This document shows, piece by piece, positions 1,725-63,993 of a DNA stretch of 64,000 nt. The stretch lies in NCBI GenBank assembly GCA_029964075.1, contig CM057135.1, positions 30,927,366 to 30,991,365 of the forward strand, written 5' to 3'. Position 1 is the first letter of the stretch; each line of letters starts with the position of its first letter. The notes beneath the pieces are model-generated. The model had not been told where the DNA came from. It did not search any database and saw only the letters and a list, made by a program, of their open reading frames with translations. Position numbers and translations under genes: made by a program. This stretch comes from Patiria pectinifera. Taxonomy: Eukaryota > Echinodermata > Asteroidea > Valvatida > Asterinidae.

Positions 1725-4700
1725 ATGGCGGATCAGCTGCAACAGTGGCTGTTTTCGTCCGATCCTTTAGGGGATCTGGACCCGAATTTACAGTCTCCAG
1801 GCGGCAGTGATGTTCTTTTGGATGATATTGACGGTATGTAAAAATTTCCACCTTTTTCGTGGCTCGGGTGTTGGGATGGGCGTCAGGAAAGTGTGTGTGT
1901 TTTGTGTTGCTGGTGGAAAAAAATCATTGATTGACATTTTGCAAACCATCATGTGTAGAAACTTTAAGACAAGTGTTTTATTTTATACATTTTGACAGTG
2001 ACATTGTATTGTATACATTTTCTAAGCCGTGATATAGGCCTATCTTTGTTTTGAAATTTTAATATGAAAGCAATTAGAAAATTGGAGGCCTCAAAAGTCA
2101 AGTTCATCTTCATGACTCTTTTTGTTTTCTTTTTGTTTTTTTGTCATGTTTGTCCCTGTTTGTCATGTTTGTAGCAATTGGTAATTTAATGCCTTCCAAT
2201 TTTGCCATTGTTTTTATGAGAAGCTAACTTAGCCTAGTGACTGTGTTTATCCATGATTTATTCAAATAGTTGACAGCTTTTCCAGCCGCCGACAGTTTTT
2301 ACTTACTGTTTTGTAGCCATGATTTTTTTGCAGGTTCGCTGAATATCATGTTAATACGCAATATTAAATGCAGTGTTTCAAATTTCAAATTTCCTGAGCT
2401 GTACAGTCGAGCATGCCGGAAAGAATGTAGTATCCAGACACCACTTCAGTGGTTGTGCACAAAGTCTATGGAAAGTAAACATGGTAAAGAAAATTTAGTT
2501 CCCAACATGAACAAAATTGGAAATGTTTCTCAGTCCCAGATTGATGTCTTTCAACATTTTTGCAATGATTGACTTATTGAAATGAGTGGTGTCCCGTTGC
2601 AACATTCTTTCCGCGCTGCCAATAAAAAACAGATCAGCATCAGTCAATGGTCAACACACTTGAGCTATTAAACATTGGTTTTAAGGGAAAATATGTGACA
2701 AAAGAAACTGATCAAGTGATAACTCAATGTCAAAAATGAGTTTGCAAATTGGTTTTAATTATTCACAGTGTAAACGTGAAATGTTTACTTCGATTTTTAA
2801 GTGCTTCAGTTCAGTCCAGCTTTCCTGGTTAAGGACCAAAAGGAAATTCTCCACAGGCAACAGGGAGGCAACCAAGTACACTCCAAGTTAAGAGAACGGT
2901 TAACAGAACTTTTATTTTGGCAAATAATTCTTAGCAAATTTTTCACTTGTCCTGAAACTTTTTGAAAGATCAACAAATGATAGTTATCAGATATTTCTTT
3001 TGAGATAGTTTTGAGATCTTTTCTTTTCCCCACCCAAGGTTTTATCATTTTATATGGTCTCTCTGAAGTGATAGTGAAAAGTTCACTAACTTGTTGTGAA
3101 AAATTCAGACTTCCAGCTTTTGAGAGATGAGATAAAAGACAAATAACTTGACTTCAGTGTTCCTTGCCAGAAATGTATTGAAATAAGATTTCTTAGGATG
3201 ATGGCAGAAAATAAGTGATAGTTATTCCGGAGTCAAAAATAGAACTTGATCGTGAGGCCTGCAAAAGGGCAAATTCAGTTTTTGTGCATCCTTTTATTAG
3301 ATACTCTCAGCACAACAAAGCAAACCTGCCTGCCTTTTCAAATTTGTATGAGAGCGCTATCGAATAGATACCCAACACTGCAGTCTCACATATCAATGTA
3401 AACAGCCTATGAGGAAATCTATACTGGGGAAGGTGGCAAGTTATTGAATTGTAAACAATGACCCTGGGTCCTGCCATAGAGGACGACGATGAGTTATGAA
3501 ATAAGGGAATATGATCGTGCCAACTCTCAATGCCCTATTGATGAGACGTCCAGGCTTCCAATCAATGTGACATGCGGTGTGCTGACCAGTTCCCTTCAGT
3601 TTGGATGTTTGCCAATGATCTCAAAGGACTTTACTTGAAGGTTGGGGTGCAGTGTTGAGTTTTTAATGCCAACATTTCTTGCAATATTACGGAGCTTTTC
3701 TACGACGTTAGGATTAATCAATTTAACTTTTTCAAATTTTAACCTTTTTTAATCTTACAGATATTTTTTCTTAGGAGACAAAGGACTGTGCACTTTTCAA
3801 AAGGTGACATTTCGGGAGAAGCGGGTATTGATGACTAGTTAGAAAGCCTTGGAGGGTACATTGTTGTCGTCCTTTCAAAGGCTGTTACTTGAGATATCAG
3901 CCCGGATATATCCCTGAAATTCTACCCTATTTTTTACATCCCTATTCATTGCTTTGTTTTTGTTTTCTACAACATGAAGGCAAGATCCACTTAATAATGG
4001 TGTTTCAAGCTCTGTGCAAGTACTTAAGACCCCCGTTCATTCTATGATCCTCACTTCCTCCTGAAATTCACTGGTGCTCGCATCACATCTTGCAGCAGTC
4101 TTGAAAAAACGTTGGACGCTATCTTGATGTGCTTTTTTGATTGATATGCTTTCTTCACAGATGTTATCAAATATGAATGTCCCGATGATTCTCTTCTACT
4201 TGATACCACCTTGGGATCAGCAAATCTCAACGATTCTGGTTTTCTATCACCGGACTCGCACTTTGATATGCTGATGACGTCTCAAGCATCGAGACTGCAA
4301 GATCAGCAACAGCAGCTACAGCAGCAACTTAGTCCAGTACAAGTACCTGCAAGCACAGAGGTACAGCAAATCTCTCCACAGCAGATACAAACGCAGCAGT
4401 CACAGCTCCAGACAGAGCAGGCAGAAAAGGAGCAACTGCAGAACCAACTGCAGCAGCAGCAGCAACAGGCTACCGTGCAGATACAGCAGTTGCTGCAGCA
4501 GCTTCAGAAGCAGGCACAACGCCAAGCCCAGTTGCAAGAGCAACAGAAGCTGCAAGCACAGCAACAACAGATACAAGCCCAACAGCAGATACAAGCCCAG
4601 CAGCAGATACAAGCCCAGCAGCAGATACAAGCCCAGCAGCAGCAGCAGCAGACTGTTCAGTTGCAGCAACAGCAAATACAGCAGCAGCTTTCACCGACTG

Positions 4701-7700
4701 CAACCCCCTTGACTGTTCAGCAGGTGCCCCAGTCATCTCCACTCAACTCTCCCAATGTTCTGAGTACAATTGCAACATCACATGTGCTGACTTCAAGTAA
4801 CATACCGACTGGCAAAACTGTAGTCGCATCACCAACGATTCAGTCACTATCTCTGACTCCACAAGTACTGCAAACTCCATCAAGTCCTCAGCTAACAATC
4901 CAGTCTCCTAAACTAGCTGTGTCTCCAGCCAAACCAGTTCAGCCATTGCCAGTCACTACAAGTTATCAACAGGTAAATATTTCAATGAATTTGTTGCATT
5001 TTACCTGAGTAAAAAAAACGTTGTCAGTTGGCATTCACAGTATGCAAAGTGGTGACCTTGGCCTTGACACTATGAATCCCTAGGGGGTTTTCTGCATATT
5101 TTACTGCAGAGTCCAGTGTTCATTTCATCAGATTGTGCTTGATGTTTCACTTCAAGTTTTTGCAAGGAATGTTTCCATTGTTTTATTGCACGTTGCTGAA
5201 TGTGGGTGGAATCGGCAAGATACTGATCAAATGTTAATGCTTGGGTTAAGTTGAGGTGGACATATGGCCATTTCCCACCACTGCCATAATGCCATTGTTC
5301 CCCTTAAATGTTGGTACATATCGTGTGCTGCACTGACTTTTCTATTAATTTTGCAGATCTGTTCTACCATAGCATTGTTGAATTAATTAAATTGATTATC
5401 TGTTTGGCAGGTTGTCGTTCCGACCCCAATCATCAAGGCTGAACCCACCAAATGCCTACCCGTGGTCTCGGTCACTAGTGCCTCCCTTCACATCAACAAC
5501 GATGGTGCAGTCATCACCAGTATTCCCATGCTGCAGGTTGACAATGACAAGCTGCCTATCAGTAGGCTGACGTCGACCCGGACTGAACAACCACCGCCGA
5601 AGAAAGGAGAGAAAAGGACAGCGCACAATGCCATTGAGAAACGTTATCGATCCAGCATCAATTCCAAGATACAGGAACTCAAACAGATGGTGGTTGGACA
5701 TGACGCTAAGGTTAGTTTCTGCTATCAAAGTTGTCTCTTCACAATTATGAATCATAAGACCTCTCAGTTTGCTGTCTGGATTTGTAGGATTAAGGATTCC
5801 ACCGTCAGAAAACCTTAGGTGACTAGAAATATTTTTGTCAAATCCCAGAAGGTCTCCCTTTCGAAAAATAAAAAAGCTTTAAGGTGATTCCAAACCATTA
5901 CTATTGTCTTGTTTTACGTGCAGATCCAGAAATCTGGCATTCTTCAGAAGGCCATAGACCACATCAAATTCCTGCGCAACACAGTCAACAAGTTGAAACA
6001 AGAGAACATGATACTGAGGGTCCAAGCAGAGAAGGCCAATCCATCACACACACTGCGTAAGTGACTGTCCTCTCAATGCCTGCTAAATTTCCAATTGCAT
6101 TTTGTTTTTCAGGAAATTCACCAGGTGATCCAGTGCATCTTCATTGTTAAAACAAATTCGCTAAATATCAATCTGATTAAGCAAATAGATATGAAATGAA
6201 TTCTGTTGTTGTCTTTATATACAGTGAGTGATTCCATCAAAGTAAAGACTGAACCGATGACACCACCCCCATCTGATACCAGCTCACCCCTGCGTAGCCC
6301 CATCAGCAGCACCTCAGACGTCTGTAGCTCTGACATGTGTGAAGAAGAAGCTATGGAGCAGAACTTCCCTTACAGCGAAGAGGAAGACTTCAAGTCTGAA
6401 CCCTACAGTCCCGGTGGTCTGCTTGACCGCACACGCCTGGCTCTTTGTGTCTTCATGTTCTGTTTCGTGGCTCTGAATCCCCTCGGATTCCTGTTTGACT
6501 CGCCTGGATCTTCTACAAACGTTGCTTTTGACAGACCACAGGGACACGGACGCACCATTCTTGCTGAAGAAGGTATGTTGTATTTAACAAAGTATTGTTT
6601 GTTTTTTCAATTACCGTTTCTATTTGTAACCAAAGTAATTGTAATCATTTTTTTTTTAAATCACTTTAAATTACTTTTTTATTGACAGAGCTAATTGAGC
6701 AGACTTGGTTCCAGTGGCTGTTGTCCTCTTGTCTGGTGTGGTTTGTCAACGCAGCGATAGTCATAGGCTTCTTAGCTGGTGTCTTCATATTCGGGGAACC
6801 AGTCACCAAGTCCCACAGCGATGCATCAACGACGTTCTGGAGACATCGGAAACAGGCGGATTTGGATCTTGCTAGGGTAGGTGACTCACTCTGTTGCTCA
6901 AATTATTCAGTTGCGTCTGGAAAGATAAGTCCTTCCTGGAGAAATGCTTTTTATTCTTTAACAAAAGTTATTTCTTCATTTATACAGGGTGACTTTGCAG
7001 CAGCAGCCAGCCAGCTACGCACCTGCCTGTCAGCTTTAGGCCGGCCTCTACCAACATCTAGACTAGACCTGTTGTCATCTCTCATCTGGAACCTGGTACG
7101 TCATGCTCTGAATCGTCTTCTCATCGGTCGCTGGTTGGCTACTCTTGCTGGCGGGCTGCGTAGGAAGAGAGAAGGAGAAAAGTGTCCTGATGGCAAGACG
7201 TCGTCTCGCAATGGTGCATTGGTCTATCACAAACTACATCAGCTTCATATGGCTGGTGAGTTTCTAGTCAATTTTCATAAATTCAATGCCTAGTTTGTTA
7301 TATTTAAAGATCTATTTCTGCAGAACTCTTTTGGCAGAACTGCTCATTACAAACTGTAACATGTTTATTCCAGGTTACTTGACTGACGGTGACCTGTATG
7401 CCATCAACATGGGTTTGTGTGCCATGAATCTTGCTGAGTGTGCTGGGGATACCATCAGTCCAGCCACATTGACTGAGATCTATGTCACTCAAGCACTGTG
7501 CTTCAGGATCAGACTGGCCAGCAGACTGCAAGTGTTCTCTGTGAGTCAAATTTTGTCGTTTTAAGTTGACCTTAACCCCTGCTGTTTGGCAATCCTCCTC
7601 AATCCTCCAAAATTTTTCAAATTTTCCAAAACTTTAACTATTTCAAATTGTATTCAAGTGTCAGAGACTCACTGCATTCAAATGCATTCATCCTCAATCC

Positions 7701-16839: not shown

Positions 16840-19487
16840 GGATGTTTCTGTGTGTGTCATCTCACCTCGAATAAGAATGTCCCCGTAAGTTCCTTTTTTT
16901 TGAAAGGAATTTCCTAAAATTCCTAGAGTTTATTGTATGAAACCTGCCTCTTAAATTGATAAACGAGGAAGATTTAAACCAGCAGGCGCTAATGTCATGG
17001 AGCAGCTGAGCATGGATATTTGTGAAGCACTGAAAATATCTTCTAAGCAAGTACAGATTATTGGCACTGAAAACAATTATACAATTTTGTAGAAATTGTT
17101 CATTGTTTGTGGCTGTTCTCAGTGGATTCCTGCTTGGCTCATAAATTTTCTAAGCAATATTTTCGTCTTGGCTACTCTGTGAAATTTGGTCCAGTCCACT
17201 GATGACTTGACTCAACACATTTGATTTAATTTGGGATAAAGACAAGACCGTCGATCTTTTAGTGGGTGTCATGCAGGACAAAAACGTCATTGAAAGCTGG
17301 CGAGATTTTTCTTTTCACCATTTTTTCCCATGGAAGCTTGGCTATTAGGTCGATGGAAAATCCTGATTAGAAATTTTATAAAAAGAATAATTCTTTGAAA
17401 AGATTTAATACTTAATCATAAAATGACATCAAATCTATTTGTAGGCCTGTCATCATGATGCATGCGATATAATTAATGTAAATACTGATAAGGAAGTTTG
17501 TCTAGACAAACTCAATTTGTTTTGATTTTATGAATCCCGCAGACGTTTGATTAAGAACCAGTAATAAAATATCAATATTTGGACTGACGCACACGATTGA
17601 CAATAAACTGTCTAATTTGGGATTCATAAATGTCTCATAATTTATACATTACACAAGACAGTTTACCCATTCCTATTGGTTGAGAGCCTGTCACATAGGT
17701 GTTTTTTTGCGATTGATAAAACACTGGCTTGCTGGTTTTAAATACTTTTCCAGTGTCCCATGAAATCTGGTCCCCTTCACCCTTTTATTAGTTGAATATT
17801 ATCGACGACCACTACGACCAGGCCCTGAGTTGGTTTGAAAAATACATGTACTTGTTTAAAATCAGCCAAGCACATATTTATTTCCGTGGTAATTCATATA
17901 TTACTTCATATATTACTTTCATCGTTAGCATTTGAAATAAATCTCTTATAGTTTGAGGAAGTAGTGTACATCTTGGCAATAAAATTGAAGATAAGACTGC
18001 TTGTCTTGACTTGCTTTTGAAGTCAAGTTTTAAAAGTACTTCCACTTTTGTCTCCAAGACATATGATGCCCACTGTCGGGTCTTACATCTTTAGAAGTTC
18101 TATCTGTCTTGTTGAACTGATTTGGATTTTCAAGGATTTTTACATTAAGACAAACATTTTTAAACTGTATTACTTTTTAAATTTCATAAGTTTAATTTTG
18201 CATATATTCCAGAACCTCTGACCAAATTTATGCATTTGACGAAATTAACATGTACCGGTACTTAATAATAGACATAATTATAATAGGTACATACATAGTG
18301 CTTACAATTAAAAGAAAAAAAAACGCTTTACATCATTATTACCCCTGATCATTGGGCCAGTGAAACATTCCAAATACAGTCTCAGCTCCCTGGGGAGTAT
18401 ACAGCTGGATGACATGTGATTACTTAATGAGTATTAGTTTGTTAATCGATGTTATAATTTTTTTTTTCTTGGCATGGAAAGGAAATAAATGAAGCTCCAT
18501 ATGTAATTGAACTGTTGTCTGTAAAAAATAATGTAATCACAAGTTTATCATGATTATTTGTATTTTAAAGTCTCTGAAATGTTACAAAATATACCTATTT
18601 ACATCACTTTGTTTTACTCTTTTACCACTTAACCATTTCTAAGGCGCACAGCATTCTTAAATTCTATACATGTACACAACGCAGAATATTGTGCGTGCAT
18701 GTCTTCAATTATTCAGACACTGATTTGACGACCTCTTGGCTAATTTGTTTCCTGTTTGTACAGCCATGACATTAAATAGATGTTTCATCAAAATGGTAAA
18801 CAAAACTCTGAAACAGACTTTCCAAGGCAAATACACGCTACCTTGTTTTAGATACGAATGGCAATTAGTGGCTGAAACCCACCATCTGGTGTTTAGTTTT
18901 TCTAATTCAGCAATTTCTCTTTCCTTTCACTTTATTTTAAAATGACTCTTATTATTTCAGAACACATGTTCATCTATCAATCTTTTTGCCAACCACATAT
19001 CCCTGTACAAAAAAAAAGGAATAAAGCCATTATAAAACCCAATCACCGTGAATGTATTAAGGGTATTAGTCGCAAAATGAGTTACAAAATTGTTTGATGA
19101 GATTTGTTGACAATTCCATTTATATGCTTGACGTCGTCACGTTTTGAACGTTGACCCTCGAGGAGAGATTTTTTTTCCTCAAGGCACTCGCACGAAGTCT
19201 TTGTTCACGTTGTGACTTCTGGTTGGTTAGTTATCTGCGCCTGTGAAGTGGTGTGTTGTCTCTTTTCAGCAGTGCTGATTCTGAAGTGGTCTGCCTCTGA
19301 TGAAAGTTCATAGCACTCAGAGATTGAGAGACACAGCAAGGTGGTTCAGACGGCCTGTCGGGAGTGATCTAGCTCTCTCAGGAGCAAGCACATTGACACT
19401 AAAAGGAGGTTAGGAGGCGACAGGTTGCACCACAGATTAGCACAACTGCTCTTTGGTGGACGCACTTTGATTCTGACGGTAATTGAA
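16839..19487. other. intergenic region between COMMD8 and the GPCR gene
   Basis: AT-rich, with no exon I can support. It includes the COMMD8 3' untranslated region (AATAAA-type hexamers near 17.56, 17.94 and 17.98 kb) and, just before the receptor ATG, its presumed 5' region. The open frame at 18736-18945 resembles nothing and looks like chance. Confidence 0.4.
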
Positions 19488-20681
19488 ATGGCAAATAGTC
19501 AGGATATTGTATGCGATATTCAAGAGAATTTCACAAGTGAGGAAGAGACCTACCTGAGTGTGTATGATGCAGGGGACAGGTTTGCTATTCAAGTGGTCTA
19601 TCCCTGCATCATGGCCCTAGGAATCATCACCAATGGAGCATTTTGTGTTGTATTGTCTCGAGTAAAACAAATGAGAAATGTAACCAATCTTTACTTGGTC
19701 AACTTGGCTTTGGCTGACCTGACTTTCTTGATTGTAGCAGTGAGTGAGAAGCTTGCTCGCATCATTGCCTCTCCAGTTCAACTTGACAAAACTCTGTATG
19801 GATTGGCCGGTTGCATCCTGATTCCCTTCATCGTTAACTGCACCTATTTTGCCTCTATCTTTATTGTCACTCTAGTTTCCATAGAAAAGTTTTATGCCAT
19901 CTGCCGTCCCTTACAGCACCGTAGAATTAGCAGTTTTGAGCGGACTGTTAAGTTACTCATCGGAGCGTGGATGCTGTCCATCCTTTGTTCTTGTACATTC
20001 ATCCCAGGCAGAGCCAATGTTGTCACTATCTGCGTCCAGTGGCCAGCAGACTACGCTGACATTGACCTGCCTTCTGTTGTCACTCTGTGCAGACCAATCG
20101 ATGTCTGGAAATGGTTCCAACATGTCTCCAACTTTTTACAGTCTGTGCCGTTGTTCGTCGCTGCTGCTGCAAACACTGTGATGTATGCCAAAATTCTGAA
20201 GACAATGCATAGGCGGGTTGGCGCGCAAGACGATCTGACTGAGATGAATAACAAGAGAGTCCAAGTACGCAATCAAGTAGCTGCTATGCTCGTTGCTAAT
20301 GGTCTAGTTTTCTTCTTATGCCAGATGTTATTTCAGTGTGTCTCCGTTGCCTTGGCATTCCGGCATCTTAGGACTCCACCCATTTTGACCGTAGCACAAA
20401 TTGACAAGGTGCTCCTAGTAGCCAGGATCCTCACGTATCTGAATTCAGCAGTCAATGCCATCATCTATAACATCGTCAGTTCCCGCTATCGTAGTGCCTT
20501 CAAGGAGACATTTTGCTGGCGCAAGGCTCGTAGAGTTCATCCCAGACCCAGAGTTAACAATGTGGACAATAACCAAGATCATCTCAATCCAGAAAGTGGC
20601 CAGAGTGACTCAAGAAATCGCACATCCGGAGCTGATAACTCAAGAAATCGCTCGTTAGAAACTGAAAACACTCTGTGTTAG
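19488..20681 (+). CDS. rhodopsin-family (class A) G protein-coupled receptor, single exon
   Basis: A 397-aa seven-helix receptor in one uninterrupted frame. I chose the ATG at 19488 (MANSQDIV); the frame is open a little further upstream but has no ATG there. Visible landmarks: N-glycosylation sequon NFT near residue 14; TM1 with GIITNG (Asn49); TM2 NLALAD (Asp77); Cys109 before TM3; TM3 end EKFYAICRP (133-141) in place of DRY; TM4 Trp161; TM5 Pro221; TM7 NSAVNAIIYN (319-328). TM6 reads FFLCQMLFQ, so the CWxP tryptophan and proline are Gln and Leu, and NPxxY has become NAxxY. Overall style is nearest to peptide receptors of the TRH/neuromedin/ghrelin type, but the ligand cannot be told. A hydrophilic Ser/Asn/Arg-rich tail follows. 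It may belong to a lineage-specific expansion of intronless receptors, as described in echinoderms (inference). Confidence 0.88.
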   Translation: MANSQDIVCDIQENFTSEEETYLSVYDAGDRFAIQVVYPCIMALGIITNGAFCVVLSRVKQMRNVTNLYLVNLALADLTFLIVAVSEKLARIIASPVQLDKTLYGLAGCILIPFIVNCTYFASIFIVTLVSIEKFYAICRPLQHRRISSFERTVKLLIGAWMLSILCSCTFIPGRANVVTICVQWPADYADIDLPSVVTLCRPIDVWKWFQHVSNFLQSVPLFVAAAANTVMYAKILKTMHRRVGAQDDLTEMNNKRVQVRNQVAAMLVANGLVFFLCQMLFQCVSVALAFRHLRTPPILTVAQIDKVLLVARILTYLNSAVNAIIYNIVSSRYRSAFKETFCWRKARRVHPRPRVNNVDNNQDHLNPESGQSDSRNRTSGADNSRNRSLETENTLC

Positions 20682-23642: not shown

Positions 23643-23864
23643 TCCATCACAAGTCCATCACAAGTCCATCACAAGTCCATTCCAAGTTCATCACAAGTCC
23701 ATCACAAGTCCATTCACAAGTCCATCACAAGTCCATCACAAGTCCATCACAAGTCCATCACAAGTCCATCACAAGTCCATCACAAGTCCATCACAAGTCC
23801 ATCACAAGTCCATTCACAAGTCCATCACAAGTCCATCACAAGTCCATCACAAGTCCATCACAAG
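23643..23864 (+). repeat. 11-bp minisatellite (tccatcacaag), about 20 units
   Basis: About 20 head-to-tail copies of tccatcacaag. A 12-bp variant with an extra t (tccattcacaag) occurs at 23709 and 23809, exactly 100 bp apart, which shows a higher-order unit of nine repeats. Reading frames through the array (SPSQVHHK-like) are artefacts of the repeat. Just downstream (about 23943-23991) are inverted partial units such as acttgtgaaaggccttgtgatgga. Confidence 0.92.
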
Positions 23865-24376
23865 TCCTTCAGTCTTAAGTCAAGTCACCAGCTATTCAAA
23901 TGAACTGTTACAAAAGCATTCCCTTGTCATTGTTCATCCCTTTACTTGTGACTTGACTTATGAAAGGACTTGTGAAAGGCCTTGTGATGGACTCCCACTA
24001 CAACGCCGTTTACATGTATTGCATGTTTAAAGTTTTGGTAAACATATTGCATAATCTTTTTTTTTCTTCAATTTGTGAGATATTACAACAATTGTTTATT
24101 TTATTTTACATAAGTTAGTAATGCTGTGTAAAGAACAACATGTTCTTTTCTTAATACTCATTTCTTACTTGGGCCAAAGAAAATAGTTCTGCTTCCGGTG
24201 ACCCTACCTACCCTATTTTGACAGCCATTACCCTATTTTTTGTTTGGGAATAATGAGAGAAAAACCACCAAAAAACCATCAATTACTACCTTTCACCCTT
24301 GACTACATGCAGATATCACCATATAATCGTACACAAAAAATCCCCCCCCCCAAAAAAAAATATTCCCCCCCAAAAA

Positions 24377-53300: not shown

Positions 53301-56300
53301 TCTTAGATATTGCTACTGAGTTTAATAAAGTTAGTCATTTAGAAACCACAGGGTTTTACCTGATGATATCTAGAGCAGTAAAACCAAACAAGGTGATTTG
53401 TTTTTTTCTTCTTTAGGATGTGGATCGTTTGATTGCTCTGAACTACGAAGAGAAGCTGGAGAGAGCAACGATCAAACTTGGAGCCAAGTATGTAGAATAC
53501 CGCCCTGAAACCGGCTCATGGGTCTTCCAGGTTTGTCACAGTTGCCTTATTTGAGAAAGTAATCATTCTGAAGATTGACAAAAAGGAAAGAAAAAGTTTG
53601 TTATCTTATTCTGTTTCTCAGTGTCATTAGTTCACTCAGTCCCATCGGCATTACATACGGCTGTGTTATAATACTGATAAAAGTCGGTGATCACAGTATG
53701 TAAATGCCAGTGATTTGTGGATTGTCCTGACATTTTTTCTATTCATTTATTTCCTGTTGTAGGTCCAGCATTTTTCCAAGTATGGATTGTCAGACAGTGA
53801 TGAAGAGGAAGAACCATCCTCTAAAGATCCTAAGAAGCAGAAAACTCAACAGCAACAGGTACTGGCACACCAAAATGATAACATCTGGGAGACTTTTAAG
53901 CCAGTTTGCATTGAATGTTATTCTATTTGGGTAGTTGTTGTCATGACAGACACATTATAAAAGCATGAGGATGACCAGTGATTGCTTTTTAGTATCACTG
54001 AGAGATTTATCTTATTGTACTCATATTTCTTTTTTGATATTTCATATTTCTTCTATTTTGTAAAAAAAGAAAACAAATTGAATGTGGCTCTTGGCTTTAA
54101 TCTTGGAACTGTGGTGAACAAAACACAGTGACAAGAAACAACTACAAGAGGAAACCTCACGAAATTATGAATTTATCTGAAATTGTATTTGGTTTACAGA
54201 AACCTGCCCAGAAACCACCAGCAGCAGGTAAACTACCTAGCAAGCAACCTGCTTCCAAACAGCCTACACCAAGGGCCCCCTCTAGTGGCAGTCAGCAGGC
54301 TAGGGAGCCGTTCCCTTCCCAGCAGGAGGAAGAACCAATGAGAGATGACATGGACTTGGAGATGATGAGAGATTCACCAATCAGAGGCCTTGGAGGCTTC
54401 TCACCTAAACCTTACATGAATGGTCACCATGACGACCTGGGGGCGGGGCAAGATGATAGGCTGTTGAATGCCCAGATGGAGGAGGAGGACAGTGCGGAAC
54501 CTGTTGCATCCTCCCACCGGCTTGCCAATGTCCTGGGGATGAACACTCATCGAATGCAAGTCATGAAAGGTTCATTCTTTGCTGATGAGGATCCAGTGGA
54601 GTACGATTACAGTAAGTTAGATTTCAGTGGATTGAATTAGGCTAATGATGATATTTCACTGATTGTTATTGTCAACATTCTTAACCAGTATAGGGTGCTT
54701 TTTAATGCCGTTCTTCAGATTCAAAAAAATGTATCTGTTCTGAACAATATACACAACTTACATAATTTGTTTTGATTTGTTCAGGGTTAACGTCAGCCCC
54801 TGTCCCTCAGACAAGACCGTCGTTTTTTGACTCTCCATCCAGAGGCTCCCCCGCACCAAAAATGGAAGAGTCCTTCCAGGAGCGAGGTAAGATAACCATT
54901 TCATAAATTGAAAATTGTCTAAAGTTTTGTTCTTCACTAAGCAAGTTTGAGTTAATGGTGATAAATTAAATTAGCTTCATGTTTGAAAGTTGCTTTCATT
55001 GTATTGATTTCTGCAAGCGAAAAAGTTTGAAAATGAACATGGTGGCGTCCCTCGTGTTTTCCTGTGTGTAGGATTGAACAAAAGTTTTGGAGGTGGAGTA
55101 TGGAGACCCCGCCCCCTTGGTAGTCCCGCCAAGTACCTAGCTGGGATGGGAGGTGCGACAGACAGCAGAGGGAGCCCTATCCCCAGAACCATCAAGGACG
55201 AAATGCTGAATCGCAGAGATCACTATATGTCTAGTAAGCCAACGTAATACATTGACTAGAATGCGTAATAGTTCTTGGAATCAATGTTACATTATTCTAT
55301 TATTTATTGATGAATTTAATAATTTTCTAATGATTTTCTATGAATAATGTTTCTATGAACACCACTTTATACTGAACAGTATAGGCTATCATGACTGTTA
55401 TTTTCAAATATACCAATCATTTGCAACTGCAAATCACTATAAAAAGTGCCACTTTGCAAGATCATCATTTCTTTTTACCTGGTAGTGTTTGTTGTTGCAA
55501 CATTCTTTTGCTCTTGCTTTCAAAAGGTTTTCTCTTCTTGTTGCAACAGGTCACTTTGCAGCCCCTAAGCCCCTCCCACCACCCTTCACAGGACCCCAAC
55601 CCCTCCACATCCCAAGTGGAATGACCCAAGATCGCCCCGGGCCCCGATTGGTTGGATCTCGTCCCCAGCAGACAATCTTACCTCTCAACCAATCAGTGAT
55701 CAGTGGTAAGGTGCCTTGCCTTGCTGATACAGGCCTCGCCATGAGTAGATCATTCCGAGTAGGCTGGGGACCCAACTGGACCCTGGTGCATTCTGGGAAG
55801 GCAGTCGGACAACGCATGAGCGTCCCAGGTTAAAATATGATTTTTATTATGTTTTTTATTTCAGTTAGATATATTGAGGTTAAGGTTACTTCAAAAATTG
55901 CCAGGCTCAATTACAAATCAGGATCATACATCAGGCATAGATAGCAGTAAAGTAAATTTCACTATGTTATCCAATGTCAAATTTGCAGAACATATACTTT
56001 TCCCCAATTTAAAGACATAAAGGATCCTTTGTTTTTCATGCATTTTATTCGTTTACAATAATAACACCACTCAAAATCCAAAGAAGAATGTGCCAAACCT
56101 AACCTGTTGAAGTTTCAGCTCAGTGGATATTACACTTTTTGAGAAAACAGTGAAAAATCAGGCATGACCTTTTGATCACAATTTCATCGATAGCACTCTT
56201 ATTTACAAAAAAATCAGTCAATAAACTGACTGTTGGAAATCACCTACATTTTTTATTTCTTCTAAAAGCCAGACGGAATAATTTGACAGTGTGTTTAGTA

Positions 56301-59300: not shown

Positions 59301-62300
59301 CATGGAGAACAATCCAGACCTATACCCAGAGGAGAGAGATGATGACATGGGGGCGGAGTTTGGGGAAGATTGGAGGGAGGCTGTTGAGGAGGAGAGATTT
59401 GTTGTGAGGGATATGTGTTTCCATCTGGTCAAGTTGTACGCTGATCGCTCACATCGTTTGGAGAGAGTGTTAGCGCCGACGACACACACAGCGAACCAGC
59501 TGGACTATAGATTGAGGTATCATGAAAAAACTTGAAGTCTTTGCAATCCATAGGAATCATTTGCCCTTGGGCATTAAACTGAGATCTTGCCATGGTGACT
59601 GATAGCCAGGCAAATGATTCCAATCCCAACCACAGCCCTTTTCACAACATACAAGATTTTACACTGCTTACATAACACAGCACTGAAATTCATTAAGGGT
59701 GGAGCTGTCTTTGACATCCAAGGGGAAAAGAATATATCAATTTGTTAGAAGATGTAAAAAACGAGAATGAGTGGTGTTTTTTGTAACTTTCATTTTCTTT
59801 GTAAGAGATGAAGTTTGTCTTCGCATCCAATTAAGCCGGCCAGTGTGCATATGATTGCATTGTGCTCTGGTGGTGTAGTGGTGCGTACAGTAACAACCAG
59901 GCTTGTATTTGGCGCTTCTCTGTCTCCTTACGTCGAGACAAAGGTGATCAAAGCGAGCTACAAATAATCACAAATTGGGAAAAAAGCTGATGTGGTTTGG
60001 GACTGGAATCATTTGCCCTTGAGCATTAAACTGAGGCCTTGCCATGATGACTGATAGCCAGGCAAATGATTCCAATCCCAACTACAGCCCTTTTGACAAC
60101 ATGCAGGATTTTACACAGCTTACTTAACACAGCACTGAAATTGATTAAGGCAAGGAACTTGGTCACAGTGTCCAAAAATATTGTGATCAATTGACAGTTG
60201 TGTAGTGATGTGTGACTGAAATTAAATGAAATTCATCGGGGTTTAGGCCAAGGATAAGGAGTATCTGCACAATGAAACATTTTCAAAATTGACTTCATGC
60301 TTTTGTAGTTATTTTAAAATAGTCAGACGGACATTTTTTGGGGACATACTGTTGATTATTAGCCAATCAGTAATGCATAAAATAAAACCTTTTTTGCTCA
60401 ATGTTCTCCTCAGCTGGCATGTATTACAAGCCCTTCAAGCCCTAGGCTTCACCCATCTATCAGATCAAGACCTAGCTCATCTTCATACCAGCTACGCCGC
60501 TCAGCTTGAAGCACTAGGACTGTGGCACTGGGCAGCATTTGTTCTCCTGCACATCCAAGATGACTTCAGGTAACTGAACAATCAAACATTCCTGGAATAG
60601 TAGAATAAAAAAATATTTATTCTAAACGTCTGGCTTCAACACAACATCTTTTAAATTCAACTATTGCACTACTATTTTTGAAAGAAGTTTCATCTTGGGT
60701 AATGCTTTCTTTGACATCGAAGGGGAAAAGCATATGTCATTTCAACAGAAGATGTAAAAAAAAAGAAGAAAATAACGAGTGGTGTTTGTTTAACTTTAGT
60801 TTTCTTGTTAGAGATGAAGTTTTTCTTCGCATCCAATTAAGCCGGCCAGTGTGCATGTGATTGCATTGTGCTCTGGTGGTGTAGTGGTGCGTACAGTAAC
60901 AACCAGGCTTGTATTTGGCGCTTTTCTGTCTCCTTACGTCGAGGCACAGGTGATCAAAACAAGCTACAAATAATCACAAATTAAAAACCCAATTTCAAAA
61001 TTCCAGTCAGGCTCGGAATTCCATCCTCTCAGGTAGCATTCTCTGTGGACCAAGTCAAGTTTGTCAAAACAGATTCTTGGCACAGAATATTTGAAATTGA
61101 ACGATGTCTGTCTTGGTTTGTTACAGGCGTGAGTATGTAGTACGTCAACTTCTCAAGCGTCAGTGTTCACTGAAGAGGGGTGAAGAGAACGCAGCCAAGG
61201 AGCGCTTCCTGGTCAGTCAACTCCACATTCCGCCTATTTGGATCTCGGAAGCTAAGGTCAGTTGCAGGGTTCCTCTGTTAAAATTTAAAAGAGCTTTCTC
61301 TAATAAAGTTGTGAGGATATTATAATCGGTTGATTGAGAATGTTCCCGGGCATATAACTGATTTTAGAATTTTGGTGTTTATAAAACTTCCCATTTTGTA
61401 AGTGACTTGTATCATTGTTCAACTTCCTTGTGCACAGCAAGCTGATTAGGGAGGTACTTAGGGAGGAGACAGAAAACGAAAAGAGGGATTTGTGTGTAAC
61501 TCCTTCCTCGCTAATTCCCTTCAAAAAGGCCAAAGCAAAGATGCTACGTTAACATTTCTTTCTAATAAGGCAGTGAAGATTATCTATACCCTTTTATTTC
61601 ATTTTTCTTGTCAGGCATTCCGTGCTCAGTATGAAGGTCGTCATCCTGAGCAGGCATGGCATCTTCTTCAAGCTGGTCACTGGAATGAAAGTCACTCAGT
61701 CATCATCAAACACCTGGCAGCCGATGCAGTCATTAGTGGTAAGTCACATGACAGTCACTCAGTCATTGTCAAACACCTAGCCACCGATGCCATCATTAGC
61801 AGTAAGCCACACGACAGTCACGTGACAGTCACTCAGTCATTGTTAAACACCTAGCAGCCGATGCTATCAATTATAGTAAGTCAAGTGACAGTCACATGAC
61901 AGTCCCTCAGTCATTGTCTAACACCTAGCCACCGATGCCATCACTAGCAGTAAGTCACACAACAGTCACGTGACAGTCACTCAGTCATTGTTAAACATCT
62001 AGCAGCCGATGCTATCAATTATAGTAAGTCATGTGACAGTCACATGACAGTCACTCAGTCATTGTCAAACACCTGGCAGCCGATGCCATCATTAGCAGTA
62101 AGTCACACGACAGTCACGTGACAGTCACTCAGTCATTGTTAAACATCCAGCAGCCGATGCTATCAATTATAGTGAGTCATGTGACAGTCACATGACAGTC
62201 ACTCAGTCATTGTCAAACACCTGGCAGCCGATGCCATCATTAGCAGTAAGTCACATGACAGTCACATGACAGTCACTCAGTCATTGTCAAACACCTAGCC

Positions 62301-63993
62301 ACCGATGCCATCATTAGCAGTAAGTCACACAACAGTCACGTGACAGTCACTCAGTCATTGTCAAACACCTAGCCACCAATGCTATAAATTCAAAAAAATG
62401 ACAGTATCCACATATTCCTGAATTAAAAAAATGAACAAAAATAATCATACATTTGTAATATTTGATCCCATTTTTTGACAGAGAACTACAACTACTTGCT
62501 GGGTCTTCTCAAGGAGCTAGTTCCCTCAGATCGATCCATCACCATTCAGGATTGGACCACTAATGGGCAGGTCTTTCTAGACTTCATCAACATTGTACAG
62601 GTAGGATCCAAACCAAGTAAAGTCTTGCACGTCTGGAGAGTTTTGTTTCAAACCTGTTAACAAAAATCAGAGAAATGATTATAGACTATTGGGGACACTC
62701 TGTAACAGAAGGTGGTGTGTTGGGATTTTGTATTGTACAATGTATTGATACAGTACGGTTTGAGGCAATGTGATTCAACATAACATGTACTGAGATATTG
62801 GCTGATTAAGCTATCATCCAGTCTGAAGGAGAATTAACCACACATTAAACAGAAATGTATTGGTTAGGCAAAAAAAAAAGGTCTCCGGTTTCTGGTATGG
62901 AGCTTGCCCCAAAAGTGGTGCAGCGACGCGGCTTTTTTTTTTTTTCCCTGATTTTTTTTGCTTCAAATGTCGGCTGATGACTGCAAATGGTGCCCGACTA
63001 AACTTAGAGCAAATATATTGGAGTCCAGAGAGGCCACATAAAGCTTATTCTCAACCATAACCCAATCTAAAAACACGTTAAAATTGTGCAGCAGCAGGAT
63101 TCCAGTCAAACCAGTGAGTTTGGCGGTTTTGAGACGTCATCTTCATTGAAAAAAACTTTTTCATTTTGCCGACGTGCATGGCTACAGCGACGCGCGCGCA
63201 TACCGGAAACCGGAGATTTTTTTTTTTGGCCTTAGGATTTATTTTGTTTCCGAGCTTCTAGTGTATCAAAAGGCACTAGGTGGATACCAGCACTTTACAA
63301 ATCTTCTTATTATTATTAATTTGATGATATGATTGTTGACTGTGTATTCCTTTGTAGAGGTTAGATCACTTACAGCGTACTGAACCTACCACCTATGAGT
63401 TAGAGAAACTCTATCCAGACGTTGCCTCGTTGTGTAGCCGTGTCGGTAGCGTGACTTGTAGGACGGCCAAGGATCGTCTCTGCCAATCAGAGATGGCCAA
63501 ACGGACGGCCAACGTCATGAAGGCGGTACTCACACTACAGGTACAAATCAGCATGAAATTGGATTGAATTAAGCATCCAGGTATTTATAATGGGGTCTAT
63601 ATCTCAATGACCCCGAGTTACAAGCACTTAAAGATGACCTACGATTACACGTTTCTTAAAAAAAAAAGTGCAGACTTTGAAACAGTTGAAAACAAAGCTG
63701 CTTGAATTTTGTAACGAACTTGGTTTTATGAAACAAATTTATTCTACTCTATCTCATCAAACCGTACTTGAATTCAACATTGTCATGAAATCAGAATGTT
63801 TTTGTTCCTGCAAGATGAACATTGCTTCTGTGATCATTTATTACAGCAACAATCTTTGCAGCCAGACAAGCCAATCCATATCCCATCTCGTCTGCTTGCA
63901 CCTCACGTCGGTAAGCTCCCTATGCCAGAGGATTATGGTCTGCAAGAACTCAGGGAACTCACTCGTAGCTATATGGTAGAACTCACTGCATGA
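35356..63993 (+). CDS. NUP98: nucleoporin NUP98-NUP96 precursor (38 exons)
   Basis: Precursor that cleaves itself into the FG nucleoporin Nup98 and the Y-complex scaffold Nup96. Exons: 35356-35404, 36094-36138, 37611-37769, 38241-38369, 45480-45643, 46767-46874, 47001-47181, 47699-47856, 48262-48387, 48877-49024, 49439-49642, 49862-49931, 50052-50157, 50397-50477, 50774-50833, 51049-51153, 51417-51535, 51849-51950, 52090-52466, 53100-53239, 53417-53530, 53763-53858, 54200-54611, 54785-54886, 55072-55233, 55550-55828, 56574-56716, 57123-57360, 57686-57801, 58205-58384, 58652-58788, 59190-59516, 60414-60569, 61127-61256, 61615-61738, 62482-62600, 63358-63540, 63847-63993. All phases agree: 1931 aa (human about 1,817). 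The start [10 protein letters not shown] is a short FG-type N-terminus. The stop TGA is at 63991, seven bases before the window ends. Intron 4 (38370-45479) is long; an FG exon hidden there cannot be excluded. Confidence 0.95.
35617..36033 (-). mobile_element. MITE-like element with GGGTTAA end (NUP98 intron 1)
   Basis: Left end cctaactccctagg, right end aaggttagggttaa. The interior is the reverse complement of that at 22087-22466 over a long block (ggcagagccagtgacatcc, 35813-35831). The left TTAA is not preserved. Confidence 0.55.
36536..36710 (+). mobile_element. MITE-like element TTAACCCTAACC...GGGTTAA (NUP98 intron 2)
   Basis: 175 bp from ttaaccctaaccgaactc to agtcagggttaa. The same element as that at 16093-16312, inverted. 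Perfect TTAA on both sides fits a TTAA target-site duplication. Confidence 0.6.
37031..37492. mobile_element. MITE with GGCC-A(n) and TTGTGTTRCCCTCA terminal repeats (NUP98 intron 2)
   Basis: The left end ggccaaaaaaagttgttgtg continues ttgccctcac and ggtcggtc; the right end, reverse-complemented, reads ggccaaaaaaaagaaattgtg then ttaccctcatccgaccgacc. About 40-bp imperfect inverted repeats enclose unrelated AT-rich DNA with no transposase frame. Confidence 0.7.
41415..41788 (+). mobile_element. MITE with TAAGGCC ends, copy B (NUP98 intron 4)
   Basis: Starts taaggcccccc...aaaaaaaaatcggtctctgg and ends ccagagaccgaggta, T-run, ggcctaa. The interior shares the caccaaggaatgggaaattg block (as complement) and gcgctgttgtagct with copy A at 31762-32066. 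The poly-C/poly-A run in the left terminus has expanded. Confidence 0.7.
42418..42515. repeat. imperfect inverted repeat (hairpin) in NUP98 intron 4
   Basis: The left arm ccccagcccctgctcaatgt (continuing tgtctctc) pairs with the right arm gagggacaacattgaccggg (continuing ggagcggggg), leaving a loop of about 20 nt. The arms match over roughly 35-40 bp with a few mismatches. Confidence 0.45.
46369..46478. repeat. inverted-repeat element of about 110 bp (NUP98 intron 5)
   Basis: A perfect 13-bp pair, ggcccccttcaat at 46369-46381 and attgaagggggcc at 46466-46478, with weaker pairing further in. Probably a short MITE. Confidence 0.45.
47328..47600 (+). mobile_element. tRNA-derived SINE (NUP98 intron 7)
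   Basis: The head has an A-box-like ttggcgtagcgg (about 47329) and a perfect B-box gggttcgaatcc (47370-47381). The body contains gggttttccccagaatattcc and cttttcctcccacc, then ends A-rich near 47600. The acceptor ends do not pair, so it is a SINE and not a tRNA gene. Plus orientation, inside the intron. Confidence 0.65.
49145..49292. mobile_element. head-to-head pair of tRNA-like sequences (NUP98 intron 10)
   Basis: A tRNA-like copy on the minus strand (about 49215-49145) and one on the plus strand (about 49217-49292) face each other. Each has the A-box tagctcagttggtagagc and a B-box (ggttcaagccccac and ggttcaaaccccgc). The minus copy keeps a perfect five-pair anticodon stem (CCGGA/TCCGG) with loop ACAGCAA; in the plus copy this stem does not pair. 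The two A-boxes make a perfect 22-bp inverted repeat separated by about 9 bp. tRNA-Ala-like ancestry is likely; neither looks functional. Confidence 0.65.
51683..51702. repeat. (gt)n microsatellite
   Basis: A short run of about eight gt dinucleotides in NUP98 intron 17. Confidence 0.7.
52607..52950. mobile_element. MITE-like element TTAACCCTAACC...TTAGGTTTAA (NUP98 intron 19)
   Basis: Left end ttaaccctaaccacccc, right end ctagggagttaggtttaa, with TTAA at both outer edges. The interior carries repeated tgatggacttggtcca motifs. Same terminal family as the elements at 7.6, 16.1, 22.1, 25.2, 35.6 and 36.5 kb but with a different interior. Confidence 0.55.
53763..53777 (+). other. NUP98: Nup98/Nup96 self-cleavage site (HF-S)
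   Basis: Exon 22 begins [17 protein letters not shown]. The HFS triad with following KYGL matches the known site where Nup98 cuts itself between Phe and Ser; here the bond lies between codons ending at 53774 and starting at 53775 (Phe919-Ser920). Catalytic residues appear intact, so separate Nup98 and Nup96 proteins are expected. Confidence 0.92.
59553..59980. repeat. dispersed repeat blocks X and Y, first copies (NUP98 intron 32)
   Basis: Block X (about 59553-59700) opens with a hairpin whose arms are a perfect 13-bp inverted repeat (ggaatcatttgcc at 59553-59565, ggcaaatgattcc at 59609-59621). Block Y (about 59708-59980) includes tggtggtgtagtggtgcgta and gtatttggcgctt. Both recur nearby: X at 60005-60155 and Y at about 60702-60985. 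Confidence 0.7.
60005..60155. repeat. second copy of repeat block X
   Basis: Closely matches 59553-59700, including the same 13-bp inverted arms at 60005-60017 and 60061-60073. Confidence 0.75.
60702..60985. repeat. second copy of repeat block Y (NUP98 intron 33)
   Basis: Matches about 59708-59980 (ttaagccggccagtgtgcat, gtgcgtacagtaacaacc). Copy 1 lies in intron 32 and copy 2 in intron 33, so exon 33 (60414-60569) sits between direct repeats. Confidence 0.7.
61691..62395 (+). repeat. 74-bp tandem array derived from the donor end of NUP98-96 exon 35
   Basis: Ten units start at 61691 (the real exon end), 61754, 61828, 61902, 61976, 62050, 62124, 62198, 62272 and 62346. After the first spacing of 63 bp every spacing is exactly 74 bp. 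Each unit begins gtcactcagtcat and repeats the coding end ([10 protein letters not shown]) followed by a donor-like gtaagt, gtaagc or gtgagt and a gtcac(a/g)tgaca linker; the last unit has lost the donor. Two unit types alternate (attagca-gtaagt and attata-gtaagt) in the first part of the array. Confidence 0.93.
62864..63236 (-). mobile_element. MITE with TTAGGC-A(n) / GGCCTTA ends, copy C (NUP98 intron 36)
   Basis: Ends ttaggcaaaaaaaaaaggtctccgg and ccggagatttttttttttggcctta. The termini resemble those of copies A and B (GGCC, A-run, GGTCTC, and a nearby GCGCGCG) but the interior differs, so it is a sister family. No transposase frame. Confidence 0.6.

Follow-up and report, generated by a model that had tools for sequence, protein, structure and literature searches.

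What becomes of a gene when the end of one of its exons, splice donor included, has been copied many times into the following intron, and does the splicing machinery use the copies? This question is raised by the 3' end of the NUP98-96 gene, which lies on the + strand at the right edge of the window, the whole 64-kb stretch of DNA that was analyzed. Pfam searches of the window matched successive exons on the + strand to the autopeptidase domain and the Nup96 domain; the protein encoded by the last four exons aligned to PDB Nup96 chains with E-values down to 8.8e-57. The Nup96 chains in the printed alignments are those that we take to be human and frog. The exon whose end has been copied lies outside the Pfam model, and its identity therefore rests on the PDB-chain alignment. 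The protein spliced from its donor at 61739 aligned to the Nup96 chains across the junction without a gap, which indicates that the exon end at 61738 is correctly assigned. The codon split by the junction of 61738 with 62482 encodes Glu, which is also found in five printed Nup96 chains. The features of the locus, with a slash marking the exon end in each donor, are as follows:

61615..61738, + strand: NUP98-96 exon (exon 35 of the original prediction), 124 nt, phase-1 end, supported by an acceptor and phase check and by the gap-free Nup96 alignment
61685..61692, + strand: ATGAAAGT, exonic left partner of an 8-base near-repeat
61691..61738, + strand: U0, the source segment, the last 48 nt of the exon
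61739..61744, + strand: canonical donor GTG/GTAAGT, the top score of the nine donors of U0 to U8
61748..61755, + strand: ATGACAGT, intronic right partner of the near-repeat, 63 bp from ATGAAAGT
61754..61827, + strand: U1, A type, donor 61802 GCA/GTAAGC
61828..61901, + strand: U2, B type, donor 61876 ATA/GTAAGT; contains the TAG at 61852-61854
61902..61975, + strand: U3, A type, donor 61950; read in the exon frame, its exon copy contains a stop
61976..62049, + strand: U4, B type, donor 62024
62050..62123, + strand: U5, A type, donor 62098; with U7 nearest to the exon (42/48)
62124..62197, + strand: U6, B type, donor 62172 with GTGAGT
62198..62271, + strand: U7, A type, donor 62246
62272..62345, + strand: U8, A type, donor 62320
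62346..62395, + strand: U9, the decayed last unit, without a donor GT
62482..62600, + strand: next exon (exon 36 of the original prediction), 119 nt, acceptor TTTTTTGACAG

The array is real. It had been predicted that the last 48 bases of the exon and the beginning of its intron are followed by nine copies, the first 63 bp on and the rest at exact steps of 74 bp, and the coordinates, both spacings and the number of units were all confirmed. The array abuts the exon and takes in the natural donor at 61739. Identity over positions 61743-62382 was 0.841 at a lag of 74 and 0.923 at a lag of 148, compared to a maximum lag-74 identity of 0.304 in 200 single-base shuffles. The TRF scores were 1063 for a period of 148 and 929 for a period of 74, the longer period ranking top because two unit types alternate over U1 to U6. 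Units of the A type (U1, U3, U5, U7, and U8) have ATTAGCA or ACTAGCA before the donor and those of the B type (U2, U4, and U6) have AATTATA, so that the array is ordered as 148-bp A/B dimers from U1 to U6, followed by U7 and U8, which are both A. The source segment U0 codes, from its second base, for 16 protein letters, and its last base opens the split Glu codon. A donor GT is retained in eight of the nine downstream units, at 61802 + 74k (k = 0 to 7), and is missing from the ninth, which starts at 62346. The 74-bp unit differs from the 63-bp unit by the addition of a second 11-bp AGTCACRTGAC. Among U0 to U8, 24 columns are variable; U5 shares an identical exon copy with U7, and U1 with U8, which appears to be a sign of exchange within the array.

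Head-to-tail units of about 10 to 100 bp at one locus make up a minisatellite, and this is what was found. A DNA search placed the array sequence at one place only in the 613-Mb assembly, with the qualification that the search skips very common words and that distant copies could escape it, and the unit pattern with up to 3 mismatches gave nine matches in the assembly, all of them within the array. An origin from a dispersed repeat or transposon was rejected, as neither the DNA search nor the pattern search found related copies elsewhere in the assembly. The 63-bp first step is the distance between ATGAAAGT in the exon and ATGACAGT in the intron, which suggests that the array was born as a minisatellite, through a tandem duplication of 63 bp between these near-repeats. 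Slippage or unequal exchange would have produced this first duplication, which happened to enclose the exon end and its donor; the ATGACAGT 8-mer also marks the right edge of the array, where it recurs at 62398. An 11-bp duplication would then have led to the 74-bp unit, and further expansion, partly as 148-bp pairs, to the nine copies.

The history of the base at donor position -1 can also be sketched. This base is G in the exon and A in all eight GT-bearing copies. Since the split codon encodes Glu here and in the five Nup96 chains, the G is probably ancestral and the A of the copies derived, and the G would have been lost either in the founder or soon after expansion began. This loss was plausibly an instance of CpG decay, in which an ancestral CG would have decayed to TG in the exon but to CA in the copies. 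Columns 47-48 are TG in the exon and CA or TA in the GT-bearing copies, columns 14-15 are CA in the exon and TG in all copies, and both pairs fit a lost CG. In the window, the observed/expected ratios were 0.47 for CpG, 1.26 for TpG, and 1.31 for CpA. Decay of CpG fits five dinucleotide column pairs, or 9 of the 24 variable columns of U0 to U8, but does not fit 15 of the 24, which counts against this explanation.

Most of the copied donors had been described as consensus-like. This held for the intronic side, with GTAAGT in six of the eight copies, GTAAGC in U1, and GTGAGT in U6, but not for the exonic side, where the copies read GCA/ or ATA/, nor for their overall strength. With a human donor frequency table and an unmodified U1 5' end, the exon donor scored 5.53 bits compared to 1.44 to 2.27 bits for the copies, and the predicted energy of the U1 duplex was -9.1 kcal/mol for the exon donor compared to -4.5 to -5.7 kcal/mol for the copies. 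The lowest of the eight copy scores was that of the in-frame donor 61802 (1.44 bits), which has C at +6. Among the 3688 GTs at window positions 1-61600, 21 reached the score of the exon donor and 149 to 224 reached those of the copies. Donors elsewhere in the gene served as a yardstick. Sixteen exon-end probes were used, of which five with ambiguous donors (near 53859, 55829, 57802, 58047, and 58385) were omitted from scoring, and the addition of three 3'-end donors gave a set of 12 assigned and two likely donors. Phase was checked for 13 links, several of which had more than one fitting acceptor. All 12 assigned donors have G at -1, and 61739 ranks second among them, with 57361 higher; the 12 include 56717, whose exon did not align and has an open frame as its sole support. 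Three of the 12 scored below the best copies (2.27 bits), and A also occupies -1 in the two likely donors, 54612 (ACA/GTAAGT) and 55234 (CTA/GTAAGC), each of which was chosen as the best GT before a stop and is phase-compatible with an acceptor farther downstream. For both of these reasons the copies could be used: they are weak, not dead. Concealment of the donors by RNA structure was rejected as an explanation. The predicted unpaired probability of GTAAGT was above that of 61739 in six of the eight copies, and since the range of the copies (0.000 to 0.254) overlaps that of the 14 yardstick donors (0.001 to 0.152), structure explains no difference between donors.

The frame arithmetic of the original prediction also proved correct. 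A splice from 61802 to 62482 would lengthen the exon in frame by 21 codons, with exon 36 still joined, and would turn the split codon GAG into AAG (Glu to Lys). This is the only downstream donor that gives an open in-frame isoform. Later donors had been expected to shift the frame or to pass stop codons, and the extensions made by all seven (U2 to U8) contain the TAG at 61852-61854, which also closes those to U4 and U7, although these are multiples of three. Splicing at U2 to U8 would leave 326 to 770 nt between the stop and the last junction downstream of it, and a stop so far upstream as a rule triggers transcript decay. The original prediction was sound in its anatomy and frame arithmetic, and its description of the copied donors calls for qualification; the A/B dimer order, the 11-bp AGTCACRTGAC, the A at -1, and the change of Glu to Lys are additions to it.

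Selection on the copies was sought at the protein and the donor level. Simulation gave probabilities for the excess of synonymous changes of 0.092 for the exon copy of U1, in which five of nine changes are synonymous, 0.320 for U2, and 0.280 for U5, in tests of low power and in an array where exchange can mimic conservation. In U6, proline replaces leucine. Of 69 six-base windows, 22, including the donor hexamer, vary as little or less among U1 to U8. Purifying selection on the copies was therefore unsupported by the simulations for U1, U2, and U5 or by conservation of the donor hexamer. Nor does U1 show a sign of retention at the protein level, because its exon copy is the same as that of U8, whose donor lies past the stop. 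Since no sign of selection emerged from these tests of the copies and the in-frame donor is the weakest by score, the most likely reading is that the array is a locus-specific, near-neutral minisatellite of the intron whose copied donors are used at a low level at most, and we consider this probable. The source donor is the stronger one, and the spliceosome should use 61739 nearly always. Rare use of a copy would give a Nup96 with 21 additional residues (U1) or transcripts with an early stop (U2 to U8), and the net effect of the array on the gene is probably near neutral. Neutrality was among the options offered by the original prediction, and that option matches the reading favored here as most likely.

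Other readings would give the copies a function, and the strongest case for one comes from human ABCA7, the closest precedent found and the only close one recognized in a search of largely open-access literature on repeats at splice sites, intron gain, U1 pairing, donor competition, minisatellite origin, and NUP98/NUP96. The VNTR of ABCA7 intron 18 is described as having a 25-bp unit, the first two bases of which are the exon-18 donor, with 23.7 copies in the reference genome and a number that varies between people (PMC5954066). Single-unit retention is reported there at 2 +/- 1%, unchanged by VNTR size, together with skipping of exon 19 that rises with VNTR length. Like that repeat, the NUP98-96 array adjoins an exon and both contains and repeats the natural donor, and retention of a single unit is an isoform described for ABCA7. 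Whereas the ABCA7 unit starts from the GT, that of NUP98-96 includes 48 exonic bases as well; retention of one such unit preserves the frame, and its copies carry A at -1. In addition, effects on splicing have been demonstrated in ABCA7 and would be a prediction for NUP98-96. On this model, the downstream donors would compete with 61739, and the number of units would set the amount of surviving NUP98-96 mRNA, with use of U2 to U8 leading to early stops and decay and with long arrays perhaps causing exon skipping as in ABCA7. There are eight GT-bearing copies, seven of which would produce the distant upstream stop described above, and ABCA7 offers both single-unit retention and length-dependent skipping as parallels. 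Against this, all eight copy donors are weaker than 61739, single-unit retention in ABCA7 was reported as rare and independent of VNTR size, and skipping of either neighboring exon (124 or 119 nt) alone would shift the frame. We find such control by copy number unlikely. Distinctly unlikely is a self-made rheostat in which the number of the eight weakened donors tunes the decay of NUP98-96 message and the first copy also adds a 21-residue repeat to Nup96; if it were true, the early loss of the -1 G from the founder would be the change that made the array tolerable.

The preservation of frame by the 63-bp step and the openness of the insert would suit a regulated use of donor 61802, which would lengthen the Nup96 solenoid by 21 residues and replace Glu with Lys. 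By chance alone, however, one step in three would be a multiple of three, and 61802 is the lowest scoring of the eight copy donors, the exon copy of U1 is identical to one that lies beyond the stop, and there is no gap at the junction in the five printed Nup96 alignments. We therefore regard this isoform as very unlikely, and give equally slim prospects to the repeat of the 16 protein letters of the exon end after GKSHD that it would carry. The copies could instead remain unspliced and act as spare U1 snRNP sites that reinforce 61739 or prevent premature cleavage, and five or six bases at each of the eight copies are predicted to pair with the U1 5' end. Yet 61739 should need no helper because it is already strong, the second of the 12 assigned donors, and many other stretches of the unit are at least as conserved as the hexamers, which makes this role extremely unlikely. 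No likelier is an error by which the array was collapsed, expanded, or misordered in the assembly: a single assembly stands behind it, but U0 to U8 differ in 24 columns with an ordered A/B pattern, and the whole array of about 0.64 kb is short relative to long reads.

Two further systems invite comparison with the array. In MIR137HG, VNTR length correlates with the use of nearby alternative donors (PMC6692358). In a model of intron gain by tandem genomic duplication, a duplicated exonic AGGT serves as both donor and acceptor of the new intron (PMC3443670). Splice signals were likewise copied by tandem duplication in NUP98-96, but here the copies of a boundary that was already present went into an intron that was already present, and they are not predicted to form another intron. 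The junction reads AGTG/GTAAGT in the exon and AGCA/ or TATA/ in the copies; as the array shows neither a duplicated AGGT nor a new intron, gain of an intron by this route was rejected. The array offers a natural test of competition between one strong donor and eight downstream copies in the same intron, in which the single within-donor difference common to all eight copies is the -1 base. If transcripts use 61739 alone, the change at -1 may suffice to shield an exon end from numerous competing donors. If the copies are used, NUP98-96 would join the disease-linked ABCA7 repeat as a second case.

Several other features of the array and the window were observed. The 64-kb window has four GTCACGTGAC palindromes, every one of them inside the array (61817-62344). 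GTCACGTGAC has an E-box core and is similar to the CLEAR element. The four palindromes probably descend from one ancestral unit, so their clustering may be due to chance. Inverted repeats around GTCACRTGAC were also seen. Near-identical peptides occur in the non-exonic open frames 59599-59987, 60051-60191, and 60818-60981, which suggests that these are copies of a dispersed repeat in two introns. Farther upstream, a glutamine-rich open frame with an 18-bp coding repeat at 4541-4645 is followed by a helix-loop-helix exon (4145-5818; Pfam HLH), together resembling SREBP. An exon at 15063-15431 matches the COMMD8 N-terminal domain (Pfam), and a rhodopsin-family GPCR of 437 residues is encoded in one open frame at 19368-20681 (Pfam 7tm_1). 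The window also holds an 11-bp TCCATCACAAG minisatellite of about 20 copies at 23643-23871.
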